This document shows, one piece after another, positions 46,246 through 51,488 of a stretch of 64,000 nt of DNA (positions are counted from its first letter, which is position 1; each line of letters starts with the position of its first letter). The translations under genes and the position numbers were made by a program. Source of the DNA: an uncultured Clostridia bacterium (GTDB lineage Bacteria; Bacillota; Clostridia; Oscillospirales; CAG-382). Under the pieces are notes generated by a model. That model was not told the origin of the DNA. It worked only from the letters and a program-made list of their open reading frames with translations, and did no database searches. Where the stretch lies: NCBI GenBank assembly GCA_944375955.1, contig CALWBE010000036.1:1-64000 (forward strand). Reading direction: 5' to 3'.

Positions 46246-47376
46246 TTATGAATTATTGAGCTGCACGGGAAGAATCATATATAGAAAACGATCGGGGTTT
46301 CCTTCTGATTTTTCATCCGGAGTTATTATCATCGGCCCTAAGCTGTGCGAAAGCGTAACCGTTATATATTCCTCATTTACTGCCTTTATGGCGTCAAGAA
46401 GTATTTTATGGTTGAATCCTATTTCAAGTTCACCGGGAATGATTTCTTCATATGAAAACTCGTCCTTGAATTTTCCGAGCATTGTAGCAACGCTTACGGT
46501 TACCGATGAATCGGCAAAACTTAATTTTATAGAACTTTTTATTCTTTCATCTATTATAAGCGCCGCTCTTTCTATACTGTCGATAAATCTTTCGGTATTT
46601 ATGCGGGCAGAAACCGTGCGCTGCGGCGGTATTTTCTTTCTGTAATCGAGAAATTCTCCGTCTAAAAGACGGGTTATAAAATAAACGTTGTCAAAAGTGA
46701 ATATTATATGTTTTCTCGCCATATTTACGGAAATAGGACTGTCGCTGTCTGAAATAAGTCTTAAAAGATCGTTTTGAGCTTTTCCGGGCATTATGAATCT
46801 AAGATCGAGATCGTCTCTTTCTGTAAGTCCTTCCTCGCTTCTCATTGAAACTCTGAATCCGTCAAGAGCTGTTATACGCATAGAATTTCCGTTTATTTCA
46901 AAAAGAGATCCGGTATATATCGGCTTTGAATCATCCTGTGATACGGCAAAAAGAGTTTTATTTATCATTGATCTTATTTTATTTTGCTGAAGCGTATAGC
47001 TCAAATCTCCTCTTACATCCGGAAGTCCGGGATAGTTTGAGGCGTCTTTTCCCGATATTTGGAAATCTGCTTCATCCGTAATTATTTTTATAATAAGATT
47101 TTCATCTGACTCTATAGTTACCGGTCCGTCGGGGAGCGAATGTATGATAGCTGCCGTTTTTTGTGCGTCAGCTACGATTTTTCCTTCTTTTTCTATGTCA
47201 GCTTCGAGCGTTGTGCGGATACCTTTTTCACGGTCATAAGAACACATTGTCAAAACTCCGCCGCCGGCTTCAAGATATATACCTTCAAGAAGAGGATCGG
47301 TATTCTTAGGAGCTACTCCTAAACATACAGGTGCTATTGATCTTTCAAGCATTTTTTTGTCAGCAGTAAATTTCAT
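46246..47376 (-). CDS. dnaN: DNA polymerase III beta clamp (DnaN)
   Basis: The sliding clamp that holds polymerase III on DNA. The 376 residues start MKFTADKKMLERSIAPV and show the three-domain clamp landmarks, ending in LGPMIITPDE and the RFLYMILPVQL hydrophobic end. I chose ATG 47376, with AAAGGAAGG nine bases upstream; an earlier ATG adds seven residues overlapping that site. It lies downstream of dnaA, with the probable origin in the 327-base gap. Confidence 0.97.
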   Translation of the reverse strand: MKFTADKKMLERSIAPVCLGVAPKNTDPLLEGIYLEAGGGVLTMCSYDREKGIRTTLEADIEKEGKIVADAQKTAAIIHSLPDGPVTIESDENLIIKIITDEADFQISGKDASNYPGLPDVRGDLSYTLQQNKIRSMINKTLFAVSQDDSKPIYTGSLFEINGNSMRITALDGFRVSMRSEEGLTERDDLDLRFIMPGKAQNDLLRLISDSDSPISVNMARKHIIFTFDNVYFITRLLDGEFLDYRKKIPPQRTVSARINTERFIDSIERAALIIDERIKSSIKLSFADSSVTVSVATMLGKFKDEFSYEEIIPGELEIGFNHKILLDAIKAVNEEYITVTLSHSLGPMIITPDEKSEGNPDRFLYMILPVQLNNS

Positions 47377-47423
47377 TTTTTGCAGCCTTCCTTTCATAAT
47401 TGAAGAGAAAATGTCTTTTTTTA

Positions 47424-47701
47424 TTTTGGAAAACTTATTGGAATTTTTTTTATTTTATAAATTTTTTTCTCTTGATTATTATATATATACATAAGGGTTA
47501 GGAGTAAAAGCAGTAGAGCTTTCGGATTTTCGGAAAACACGGACAAGCTTCCTTAAAATGGGAAAGACGGCATTTTTTTGATTCGGAAAAAGCCGCTTTA
47601 ATTTTAGGAAAACATGCGGAAAAAAACATTATTTTTCCACAAAGCATAAAAAAGAAAAATTTCGGGTTTTTCGGAAAACTTTTTTCGGGTTTTCGGAAAA
47701 T
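47424..47701 (-). repeat. seven TTTTCCGAAAA-like iterons in the dnaA-dnaN gap
   Basis: On the minus strand the core TTTTCC(G/T/A)(A/C)AA occurs at 47424-47434, 47527-47538, 47582-47592, 47602-47613, 47614-47627, 47668-47679 and 47690-47701. All copies share one orientation. The last two sit inside a 22-base direct repeat that also carries CCCGAAA. The final copy abuts the dnaA stop codon. Confidence 0.85.
47633..47641 (+). promoter_or_regulatory. DnaA-box-like site TTTTCCACA
   Basis: TTTTCCACA differs from the classical TTATCCACA at one position. It is the only near-consensus DnaA box I found in the dnaA-dnaN gap. Confidence 0.5.
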
Positions 47702-47703
47702 TT

Positions 47704-49281
47704 TTATCTTTGACCGAGTTCTCTCATTATGGATTTTATTTGTTCTTCAAGAGTTTTGTCTGATTTTTTAGCTTCTTCGATAAGATATACCGAATCGCAT
47801 ATTGTAGAATGATGCCTTCCTATAAATTTTCCTATTTGCTGATATGTCATATCTGTTAGATTTTTCAAAAGATAACATGATATCTGACGTGCGGTAGTTA
47901 TATTTTTAGCGTGGCTTTTTCCCAGTATATCGTCCCGGCTTATATTTGTATGGCGTGAAACCGTATCGATTATTTTTTCAGGATTTATCTCTATCGGTCC
48001 GGTAATGACATTTCCGACTACGCTGTGTACAAGTTCTTCGGTTATCGGCTGTTTTTTTAAGATTGCGTGAATATTTATATTTTTAAGTATTCCCTCAATC
48101 TGTCTTATGTTTTCCCTTACGTTGTCGGCTATATAATTTACCGCGCTGTTGGGAATTTCAATATTCATATCAATGGCTTTTCGCCTTATTATTGCCGTTC
48201 TTAATTCGGGATCGGGATCTTTTATATCTATAATCGCGCCGGATTCAAAACGCGAGCGTATCCTTTTTTCAAGCACTGCTATATCTTTAGGCGGACGGTC
48301 GCTTACGACTATTATTTGTTTGTTTGCTTCATAAAGGGTGTTAAATGTATGGAAAAATTCAAGCTGAGTCGCTTCTTTTCCGCCTATAAACTGAATGTCA
48401 TCTATCATTAAGATATCTGCGTTGCGGTATTTTTCGCGGAAATCTGCGGTTGTTTTATGTGTTATAGCATCTACAAGCTCAATTGTAAAATCTTCGCTTG
48501 TAGAATAAATTATATTAAATGACGGCCTTGTTTTTTCTATATGATGGGCTATTGCGTATAAAAGGTGAGTTTTTCCTATTCCGGGAGGACCGTATAAAAA
48601 AAGGGGATTGCATTGAGCTGCCGGATATTGAGCTACTGAAAAACAGGTTGCATATGCCATCCGGTTTGAATCGCCTACCACAAAGTTTTCAAAGGTATAG
48701 CTCGGACGGTATTCAGGAACCGACTGCGACATGAAAAGCATCCCGTCTTTGCTTCCTAAATCTTCGAGATATTTTATAAGAGATACGTCTTCGAGACTGT
48801 CCTTTTCAGAATTGTATACCTTTGGAAAATAAAGATTATTTTTTGAAAGCCGGAAGGTTTTTGGATGCGATCTCGGCTTTATTGTCTCTGCCGTATCCTG
48901 TTCCTGAGAATAATCCTGACTCAATGAATTATTGGAAAAATTATCTTCCTCTTTTTTCTTTTGTTCTTCAAGCAGCTGTTTTTTTGCTTCTTTTTCAATT
49001 ATCTCAAGATATTGCTCCTCAAAAGAGCGCGTTTCAATAGATATTATACATACTTTTACTTCAAAACCTATTATGTCTTTCAGTGCCTGTTCAAGAATAT
49101 CCATGAAATGAAGTTCTATATTCTTTTTTTTGAAATCATTTGTAGTCTGAAGATATACTTTGTCGTCTATCAGTTTTTGAAGTGAAAGATCACCGAACCA
49201 TAAACTAAAAGTCATTTTGCTTTTTAATCTTTCACCGATAAGCTCTAATACAGACGGCCAAATTTCGGATTCCAGCGACAT
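47704..49281 (-). CDS. dnaA: chromosomal replication initiator DnaA
   Basis: DnaA binds and melts the origin. The 525 residues have domain I (SLESEIWPSVLELIGERL), a Lys/Glu/Ser-rich domain II linker to about residue 185, and an AAA+ domain with LFLYGPPGIGKTHLLYAIAHH and ILMIDDIQFIGGKEATQ. Domain IV carries TTARQISCYLLKNLTDMTYQ. Its recognition motif reads IGKFIGRHHST, one residue shorter than the usual IG..FGGRDHST and with His490 in place of the base-contacting Asp. AAAGGAGG precedes the ATG at 49281. Transcription comes from a clear promoter at 49332-49360. Confidence 0.97.
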   Translation of the reverse strand: MSLESEIWPSVLELIGERLKSKMTFSLWFGDLSLQKLIDDKVYLQTTNDFKKKNIELHFMDILEQALKDIIGFEVKVCIISIETRSFEEQYLEIIEKEAKKQLLEEQKKKEEDNFSNNSLSQDYSQEQDTAETIKPRSHPKTFRLSKNNLYFPKVYNSEKDSLEDVSLIKYLEDLGSKDGMLFMSQSVPEYRPSYTFENFVVGDSNRMAYATCFSVAQYPAAQCNPLFLYGPPGIGKTHLLYAIAHHIEKTRPSFNIIYSTSEDFTIELVDAITHKTTADFREKYRNADILMIDDIQFIGGKEATQLEFFHTFNTLYEANKQIIVVSDRPPKDIAVLEKRIRSRFESGAIIDIKDPDPELRTAIIRRKAIDMNIEIPNSAVNYIADNVRENIRQIEGILKNINIHAILKKQPITEELVHSVVGNVITGPIEINPEKIIDTVSRHTNISRDDILGKSHAKNITTARQISCYLLKNLTDMTYQQIGKFIGRHHSTICDSVYLIEEAKKSDKTLEEQIKSIMRELGQR

Positions 49282-49331
49282 TACAAATCCTCCTTTCCGC
49301 AATAATACTCCACAGTAAATATATCCGATAT

Positions 49332-49360
49332 ATTATACCACAAAACGGTTTTTTTTGCAA
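49332..49360 (-). promoter_or_regulatory. promoter of dnaA
   Basis: On the minus strand TTGCAA (49355-49360) and TATAAT (49332-49337) have 17-base spacing. The leader to the dnaA start is about 45 bases. Classical DnaA boxes are not evident; TGTGGAGTA near 49310 is a poor match. Confidence 0.78.
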
Positions 49361-49414
49361 GTGTTTTCCTATTATAATATACCTGTTATTTTAATACGGC
49401 TTTTTTATGAAAAA

Positions 49415-49457
49415 ACAGCATAACGCTTTTTTATTTACAAAAAAAACGTTATGCTGT
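49415..49457 (-). terminator. intrinsic terminator of the ABC exporter unit
   Basis: ACAGCATAACG (49415-49425) pairs perfectly with CGTTATGCTGT (49447-49457), and the AT-rich loop (TTTTTT...AAAAAA) can extend the stem. On the minus strand TTTTTT follows, ending the exporter operon. It separates that operon from dnaA. Confidence 0.88.
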
Positions 49458-49484
49458 AATTCTTATTTTTTATTTAATAAATTT

Positions 49485-51488
49485 TTAGTCGAGTTCGGCT
49501 TTTCCGGTATAAAGCTCGTAATATCTGCCGTGAAGAGCAAGAAGATCTTCGTGGCTTCCTCGCTCGATAATTTCTCCTTTTTCAAGAACCATTATGGCGT
49601 TGGAGTTTCTTACCGTTGAAAGACGGTGAGCTATTACAAATGTGGTGCGGTTTTTCATAAGTCTGTCCATACCGTGTTCTATATGACGTTCTGTTCTTGT
49701 ATCGACTGAACTTGTCGCTTCGTCGAGCACCAGTATCGGAGCTTTTGACAAAGCGGCTCTTGCAATATTAAGCAGCTGTCTTTGTCCTTGTGACAAATTA
49801 GCTCCGTCTCCTTCAAGTACTGTGTCATATCCTTTATCAAGCCTCATAATAAATGAATGAGCACTTGCAGTTTTTGCTGCCTGTTCTACTTCTTCATCTG
49901 TGGCATCAAGTCTGCCGTAACGGATATTTTCCCTCACCGTGCCTGAGAAAAGATGCGTATCCTGAAGAACCATTGCTATATTTGAACGGAGATATTCCAT
50001 TTTTATGTCTTTTATATTTACTCCGTCTATTGTTATTTCTCCCTCTTCAATATCATAAAAACGATTGAGAAGATTAGTTATTGTAGTTTTTCCTGCTCCG
50101 GTTGATCCGACAAAAGCTATTTTTTGTCCGGGTTTTGCATAAAGCGTTATATCTTTAAGAATAGTCTTTCCGGGAACATATCCAAAAGTTACGTGTTTAA
50201 GTTCTACATATCCTTTCATTCCTTCCGGCTTGTCGGAAAAATCGACAGCTTCAGGAGAGTCTTTCGGTTCCTCTTTCTGATCTATTACCGCAAAAACTCT
50301 TTCAGCTCCGGCAAGTGCCGAAAATACGGCGCTCATCTGCTGTGATATGTTGTTTATCGGGAAAGAAAATCTTCTCGAATACTGTGCAAATACCGTAAGA
50401 GCACCCGGCATCATTCCGGCAGTGCACATCAGTATTCCTCCTAATCCTACGGTGAGCGCATAGCTTATCTGTGATGTGTTTCCCATTATGGGACCCATGA
50501 TTCCGCCGTAAAAATTAGCTTTGAACTGTTTATCTCTCAAATCGTCGTTAAGTGTTGAAAATTCTTCTATTGAATCGTTTTCGTGATTAAATACCTTTAT
50601 AACTTTCTGACCGGATACCGTTTCTTCGATATATCCGTTTATGGCTCCGAGAGCAGCCTGTTGACCTATGTAATATTTACGGCTCTTACCTGCTATTATC
50701 ATACCGCCTTTGGCGAAAATAGGTACGAAAAATACAGTGACAAGTGTCAGCCATATATTTGTGGTTATCATGAACACAAAGGTTCCTATAAGCGTTACAA
50801 GACCTGATATCACAGAGACAAGAGAGTTGTCAAGCATTGTTCCTATATTGTCCACATCGTTTGTAAAACGGCTCATTATTTCACCGGTAGGGTTATTGTC
50901 GAAATATTTTATAGGCAGTTTCTGCAGCTTGCCGAACAGATCGTTTCTTATCTGTTCTATAGAATTCTGTGATACCGTTATCATAAGTCTGCTTTGCATA
51001 TAGTTTGAAATTACTTCTACTATGTATACGGAAAGCAGTATTATAAGAGCTACTGCAATATACAGCATAACTTCGCCGAAATCTCCGTATTTTGTAAAAT
51101 CGATTATTTGCCTTAACGGTCTTTCAACAAAATTCATGACAGATGTTATAACACTGTCAGAAAGTTTTTCCATTGTGCTGAGACTTTCGGAAGATATGCC
51201 TATTTGTATAGAAAGACGGTTTATGATAGGCGCAAGCATAAAGGATCCTATAAGTCCTGAAACCGATGTCAGAAGCATAAAGAAAAGAACTGCTACAAGT
51301 CTGAATTTATATTTTCCGACATATTTAAAAAGTCTTTTTATAGTATTTTTTGTGTTTTTGGGTTTGCCTTTTTCATGTGCGGCCCTTCTTCCGCCGGGAC
51401 CGCCTCCGGGACCGCCGAATCCCATGCCTCTTGACGCGGATGCGGAGGAATTATATTGTTTTTGAAGTTCGCTTAATGATCTTGCCAT
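49485..51488 (-). CDS. ABC exporter, half-transporter with canonical catalytic site
   Basis: One half of a heterodimeric type IV ABC exporter, probably exporting drugs or lipids. A 60-residue glycine-rich N-terminal leader (GGPGGGPGGRR) precedes six membrane helices (about 65-380). The ATPase has Walker A FVGSTGAGKTTITNLLNRF, the unusual signature LSQGQRQLLNIARAAL (canonical is LSGGQ) and Walker B ILVLDEATSSVDTRTE, with catalytic Glu. AGGAGGGC in the end of the previous gene serves its ATG. It starts five bases after the partner gene and ends at a strong terminator. Confidence 0.92.
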   Translation of the reverse strand: MARSLSELQKQYNSSASASRGMGFGGPGGGPGGRRAAHEKGKPKNTKNTIKRLFKYVGKYKFRLVAVLFFMLLTSVSGLIGSFMLAPIINRLSIQIGISSESLSTMEKLSDSVITSVMNFVERPLRQIIDFTKYGDFGEVMLYIAVALIILLSVYIVEVISNYMQSRLMITVSQNSIEQIRNDLFGKLQKLPIKYFDNNPTGEIMSRFTNDVDNIGTMLDNSLVSVISGLVTLIGTFVFMITTNIWLTLVTVFFVPIFAKGGMIIAGKSRKYYIGQQAALGAINGYIEETVSGQKVIKVFNHENDSIEEFSTLNDDLRDKQFKANFYGGIMGPIMGNTSQISYALTVGLGGILMCTAGMMPGALTVFAQYSRRFSFPINNISQQMSAVFSALAGAERVFAVIDQKEEPKDSPEAVDFSDKPEGMKGYVELKHVTFGYVPGKTILKDITLYAKPGQKIAFVGSTGAGKTTITNLLNRFYDIEEGEITIDGVNIKDIKMEYLRSNIAMVLQDTHLFSGTVRENIRYGRLDATDEEVEQAAKTASAHSFIMRLDKGYDTVLEGDGANLSQGQRQLLNIARAALSKAPILVLDEATSSVDTRTERHIEHGMDRLMKNRTTFVIAHRLSTVRNSNAIMVLEKGEIIERGSHEDLLALHGRYYELYTGKAELD

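Follow-up and report, generated by a model that had tools for sequence, protein, structure and literature searches.

The dnaA-dnaN gap of the window, the whole 64,000-nucleotide stretch of DNA from an uncultured gut Clostridia bacterium analysed here, raises the question of whether a short motif repeated in it is a lineage-specific DnaA box, as the original prediction proposed, and whether the DnaA protein encoded beside it differs at the residues that read this box. The gene order of the window is the usual one, dnaA, dnaN, recF and gyrB. The dnaA gene is located on the minus strand at 47704..49281, when its start is placed at ATG (MSLESEIW...), with the listed open reading frame beginning at TTG (49302). 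The dnaN gene is located on the same strand at 46246..47397. Window DnaA exceeds the cut-offs of Pfam DnaA_N, Bac_DnaA and Bac_DnaA_C, indicating that domains I, III and IV are present. The gap between the two genes is 306 nt long and 72% AT.

Seven 9-mers that begin with TTTTCC are located on the minus strand of this gap, with 5' ends at 47700, 47678, 47623, 47612, 47590, 47537 and 47433. Four of them are TTTTCCGAA (three being TTTTCCGAAAA), located at 47692..47700 and 47670..47678, 22 bp apart and each followed by AA, and at 47582..47590 and 47529..47537. The others are TTTTCCGCA (47615..47623), the box-like TTTTCCTAA (47604..47612) and the box-like TTTTCCAAA (47425..47433), which adjoins dnaN. 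All seven fit the 9-mer TTTTCC[GTA][AC]A, but only five of the seven fit the ten-base form ending in AA that had been described. They all read in the same direction, as predicted. TTTTCCGAAAA is a near-palindrome, the direction of which is set by its central base only, but the orientation holds nevertheless, because the other four copies are asymmetric, being constant in TTTTCC and variable rightward. The direct repeat of 22 bases that had been described is real but imperfect: two of the three TTTTCCGAAAA copies are 22 nt apart, but the repeat contains one indel. Because these two copies lie in a 22-bp imperfect duplication, they are not independent. The gap contains only one near-classical box, as had been noticed, a single TTTTCCACA at 47633-47641 on the plus strand, facing the opposite way. 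When the seven copies are compared with the classical box TTWTNCACA, they agree with it at positions 1-6, whereas ACA is absent from positions 7-9 of all of them; the single TTTTCCACA of the opposite strand does end in ACA. In its clustering, its orientation and its location between dnaA and dnaN, the motif is as expected of DnaA boxes.

In a spacer that is rich in AT and has runs of T and of A, TTTTCC...AAA may arise by chance, and the number of copies may be inflated by the 22-bp duplication, from which two of them derive. However, when the 306-nt gap is shuffled 5000 times by dinucleotides, the observed counts are never reached. TTTTCC is observed 7 times, as compared with a shuffle mean of 1.07 and a maximum of 6; TTTTCC[GTA][AC]A 7 times, as compared with a mean of 0.17 and a maximum of 3; and TTTTCCGAAAA 3 times, as compared with a mean of 0.02 and a maximum of 1. 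Chance is therefore excluded as the origin of the motif, and low complexity is left with a negligible probability, also because the arrangement of the copies recurs in relatives, as described below. The search of the whole genome (2.18 Mb, 72 contigs; counts by pattern search) confirms that TTTTCCGAAAA is rare, with 18 copies, 3 of which are in the dnaA-dnaN gap. Thirteen copies on other contigs were checked (12 by a conservative count, with 11 inside frames), and all but one are located inside long reading frames, on either strand. The lone copy outside reading frames points to a second, off-origin box cluster.

Three of the TTTTCCGAA copies have a partner in the same direction 8-9 bp downstream. 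The partner of the first copy, AAACCCGAA at 47684..47692, starts 8 bp past this box; that of the second copy, again AAACCCGAA, is located at 47661..47669, and the same block is found in the relatives L003 and L004; and that of the copy at 47529..47537, AAATCCGAA, is located at 47521..47529, also with the starts 8 bp apart. AAATCCGAA is box-like under the variant consensus only. This last tandem pair adjoins a DnaA-trio-like run, CTACTGCTTTTACTCCTA (CTA CTG CTT TTA CTC CTA, 47499..47516, minus strand), which is followed by an AT-rich stretch at 47440..47492 on the same strand, the probable unwinding element. The upstream box of this module, TTTTCCGAA, is separated by a 12-bp spacer from the trios, and the published box-to-trio spacing peaks at 10-13 bp (PMC8287927). 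The gap thus contains a box at about 10-13 bp from at least three trios as well as a same-direction tandem, the two features of a basal unwinding system. The comparison of the gaps of relatives, which had been proposed, reveals the same layout across the order, with the same trio-like element. For example, TTTTCCACATTTTCCACCGACT is followed by CTACTACTA in L007, the DnaA protein of which has Asp at position 433 (D433), and TTTTCCGCATTTTCCGCAGCATA is followed by CTATTATTA in L026, in which this residue is His (H433). Because the layout is common to the relatives, boxes can be compared at equivalent positions across genomes, with no motif presupposed.

A second box cluster upstream of dnaA, as in a bipartite origin, was sought in the 49282-49484 gap and not found. 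ABC-transporter genes are located upstream of dnaA (~49282-49500) in place of rpmH/rnpA. The origin therefore seems to be confined to the dnaA-dnaN gap. The GC-skew minimum, with which the motif had been expected to coincide, is not at dnaA: the cumulative skew of the contig (window 1-64000 together with L288 and L289) is still falling beyond dnaA until ~66 kb and wanders afterwards, so that it does not help to place the origin.

Alignment with the structures 1j1v (E. coli) and 8btg (B. subtilis) reveals the following residues of window DnaA in place of those of the E. coli protein: His for R399, Gln for P423, His for D433, Cys for L438 and Asp for H439; H434 is retained. The conserved base-contacting residues of a DnaA of classical specificity (R399, P423, D433, H434, T435 and H439) are thus H, Q, H, H, S and D. 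Residues 399, 423, 433-435 and 439 are listed as base-contacting (PMC7561715). D433, which acts on box position 7 together with L438, is highly conserved among bacterial classes (PMC8235120). The codon for the His that replaces D433, the base-contacting residue of E. coli that reads box position 7, is located at 47812..47814, and that for the Asp that replaces the base-contacting H439 is located at 47794..47796, both on the minus strand. Position 7 is the position that is changed from A to G in the motif. In a collection of 236 different DnaA proteins, most of which come from the order of the window genome, 11 have an acidic residue at 439; all of them are encoded in the window genus (g1) and a second genus of the family (g2), and always with H433. 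The window genome is the only one with this combination among the 398 phylum genomes sampled. The HH pattern is rare outside the order, and the one DnaA of the class sample that has it, L204, is accompanied by ordinary TTTTCCACA boxes.

A usable downstream gap is available for 204 of the 236 proteins. When the recognition region is masked for tree building, D433H falls into about 17 separate clades. The window genus is sister to g3, which carries D433 and has TTTTCCACA at the same place where the window genus has variant boxes. The genus g2, which has H433 and TTTTCCGCA boxes, forms a clade separate from that of g1. In the gaps with D433 (165 loci), 189 TTWTCC boxes end in ACA and 12 in GAA/GCA, as compared with 38 and 25, respectively, in those with H433 (32 loci). 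When counted per locus, G at position 7 (G7) is at least as frequent as A in 7 of the 16 informative H433 loci, as compared with 5 of the 56 informative D433 loci (Fisher p = 0.003, the loci not being independent). All five D433 loci are 1:1 ties, and G7 is dominant at none of the 56, an occasional G7 box being found in a few D433 relatives. G-dominant loci are found in three lineages, g1 (mixed), g2 (mixed) and L188, each of which lies inside an H433 clade; the H433 clades make up 19% of the length of the tree (rough p = 0.007). In L188, an H433 lineage independent of the other two, seven G[AC]A boxes and no ACA box are present.

H433 is not the only factor, and alone it is not sufficient for G7 boxes, because five other informative H433 lineages keep ACA: L133 (9 of 9 boxes), L159, L167/L170, L175 and L283. 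A single-residue rule for G7 was rejected, since M438 or S439 is common to G7 lineages and to H433 lineages that keep ACA. Nor can R399H be the general cause of G7, because it is absent from L005, g2 and L188.

Other departures from the classical pair are found in the same sample. Asn is present at 433 (KNHST/RNHST) in L114, L116, L153, L185, L192 and L194, from several families of the order, and some of these origins use boxes like TTTTCAACA or TTTTAAACA instead of TTTTCCACA. The trio-proximal boxes of L061, L136 and L151, which have H433, resemble TTTTAACA, in which C5/C6 are lost, a deviation from the consensus of another kind.

The second box cluster of the window genome is an intergenic array at ~8150-8355 of contig C27 (957-1155 of L296), in which TTTTCCGAA (four copies), TTTCCCGAA, TTTTCCTAA, TTTTCCACA and TTTCCCACA are arranged in both orientations within ~160 bp. 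Equivalent elements are located at L305 1482-1672, L313 1353-1559 and L341 722-912 of three other genomes (G001, G002 and G004, respectively). All four elements are bracketed by the inverted repeat TTTACATAAT / ATTATGTAAA (ATTATGTCAA in one of them), the two arms being 181-197 bp apart, and they are located near a gene for a YgjV-type membrane protein and/or a gyrB/parE-like topoisomerase gene. The commonest box endings over the four elements are GAA (15) and ACA (7). TTTTCCGAA and TTTCCCACA/TTTTCCACA thus occur together away from the origin in four members of the genus. Because both box types are mixed in this off-origin cluster, the same DnaA protein probably binds both. The array is possibly a titration element or an element of the datA/DARS kind.

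Two further explanations of the motif have to be weighed against a variant DnaA box. If the TTTTCCG copies are degraded classical boxes, TTATCCACA is still the sequence that DnaA recognizes, the lone TTTTCCACA is the one box that counts, and the copies are weak, tolerated sites of low affinity. Well-studied origins normally contain low-affinity boxes that are off-consensus at position 7, and L003 and L004 of the window genus retain several TTTTCCACA boxes, which are slightly more numerous than their G[AC]A boxes despite the same H399, H433 and D439. However, degradation does not account well for an exact TTTTCCGAAAA that occurs three times in the window, and TTTTCCGAA occupies the place beside the trios, where the best box is normally found. 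In addition, G7 is prominent in two more independent H433 lineages, and base-contacting residues are altered in the same proteins. Degraded boxes are therefore an unlikely explanation.

Binding of the motif by another regulator, such as Spo0A or a dimeric protein that reads the near-palindrome TTTTCSGAAAA, is less likely still. Spo0A sites overlap DnaA boxes in Bacillus, Spo0A is encoded in the window genome, and TTTTCCGAAAA is near-palindromic. However, the retention of TTTTCC with rightward variation is that of an asymmetric site, the 8-9-bp tandems end at trios, and the motif is mixed with TTTTCCACA in two places, the gap and the off-origin cluster. No Spo0A box (TGTCGAA, TCGAA or the reverse complement) is found in the dnaA-dnaN gap.

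The motif is thus very probably a DnaA box, as judged from sequence. The original prediction of a lineage-specific box is upheld by the position of the motif in the unwinding module, by the changes of base-contacting residues in the DnaA of this genome and its genus alongside a D433 sister genus that has TTTTCCACA, and by the mixed second cluster, but not in the sense that one specificity has been replaced by another. Because TTTTCCACA boxes remain in the genus, the specificity at positions 7-8 has probably been broadened or shifted, rather than fully switched. According to the preferred reading, the chromosome would be replicated from the dnaA-dnaN gap (oriC), with the repeated motif as the genus form of the DnaA box, TTTTCC(G/A)(A/C)A, to which domain IV of DnaA is predicted to bind, as suggested by the covariation between residues and boxes. 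The trio-proximal pair TTTTCCGAA and AAATCCGAA would load DnaA onto the trios CTACTGCTTTTACTCCTA, and the resulting DnaA filament would open the AT-rich stretch near dnaN. At position 7, the base preference of DnaA may have moved from A towards G through D433H in combination with further substitutions, H439D/E among them. We estimate the probability of this reading, in which the origin, the variant box and the residue-driven shift are taken jointly as worded, to be about 0.78. When considered separately, a causal role of the residue changes in the change of the boxes is given an even chance or slightly less. It is only tentatively proposed that the recognition code has changed repeatedly, D433H (with H439 changed to D/E in two lineages) moving position 7 from A towards G, the origin and off-origin boxes following, and the members of the genus, with mixed ACA/GAA boxes, being part-way.

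Lineage-specific DnaA boxes are already known from Thermotoga maritima and Epsilonproteobacteria. The window origin shares the dnaA-dnaN position, one-direction tandem boxes, the 12-bp spacer, DnaA-trios and the AT-rich stretch with the classical box (TTATCCACA / TTWTNCACA) and the basal unwinding system of B. subtilis, but differs from them in having GAA or GCA instead of ACA at positions 7-9, and H433 and D439 in DnaA. T. maritima provides a precedent for a DnaA with altered recognition residues and a lineage-specific box, and its DnaA (2z4r) has Asp at the 439 position, as does window DnaA. However, its 9-mer box, ACCTACCAC, is unrelated, the residue at 433 is Ser instead of His, and it is not a close relative. 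For the epsilonproteobacterial boxes, which have T at position 5, the divergence has been explained by substitutions within domain IV helix 5, but another box position is affected, and 433-434 are conserved there, whereas 435, 438 and 439 are variable. The off-origin cluster of the genus resembles E. coli datA/DARS and the off-origin clusters of B. subtilis in kind only, as an intergenic array of the same boxes, and differs from them in that it is an element of ~180-200 bp bracketed by TTTACATAAT ... ATTATGTAAA. No description of an H433 DnaA or of TTTTCCG(A/C)A boxes was found in the literature searched, the scope of which leaves out most subscription journals.

Because the DnaA residues that normally read the altered bases have changed to match, the results suggest that the initiator protein and the origin DNA have undergone a joint change of recognition code. 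Most origin prediction relies on the TTATCCACA box, and programs that search for the classical box may overlook such origins or score them wrongly. An order that has lost D433 many times, with a box change at the position read by this residue in three lineages, provides a natural experiment in which an essential protein and its DNA site change code while the cell remains viable, and offers initiator-origin pairs of altered specificity.
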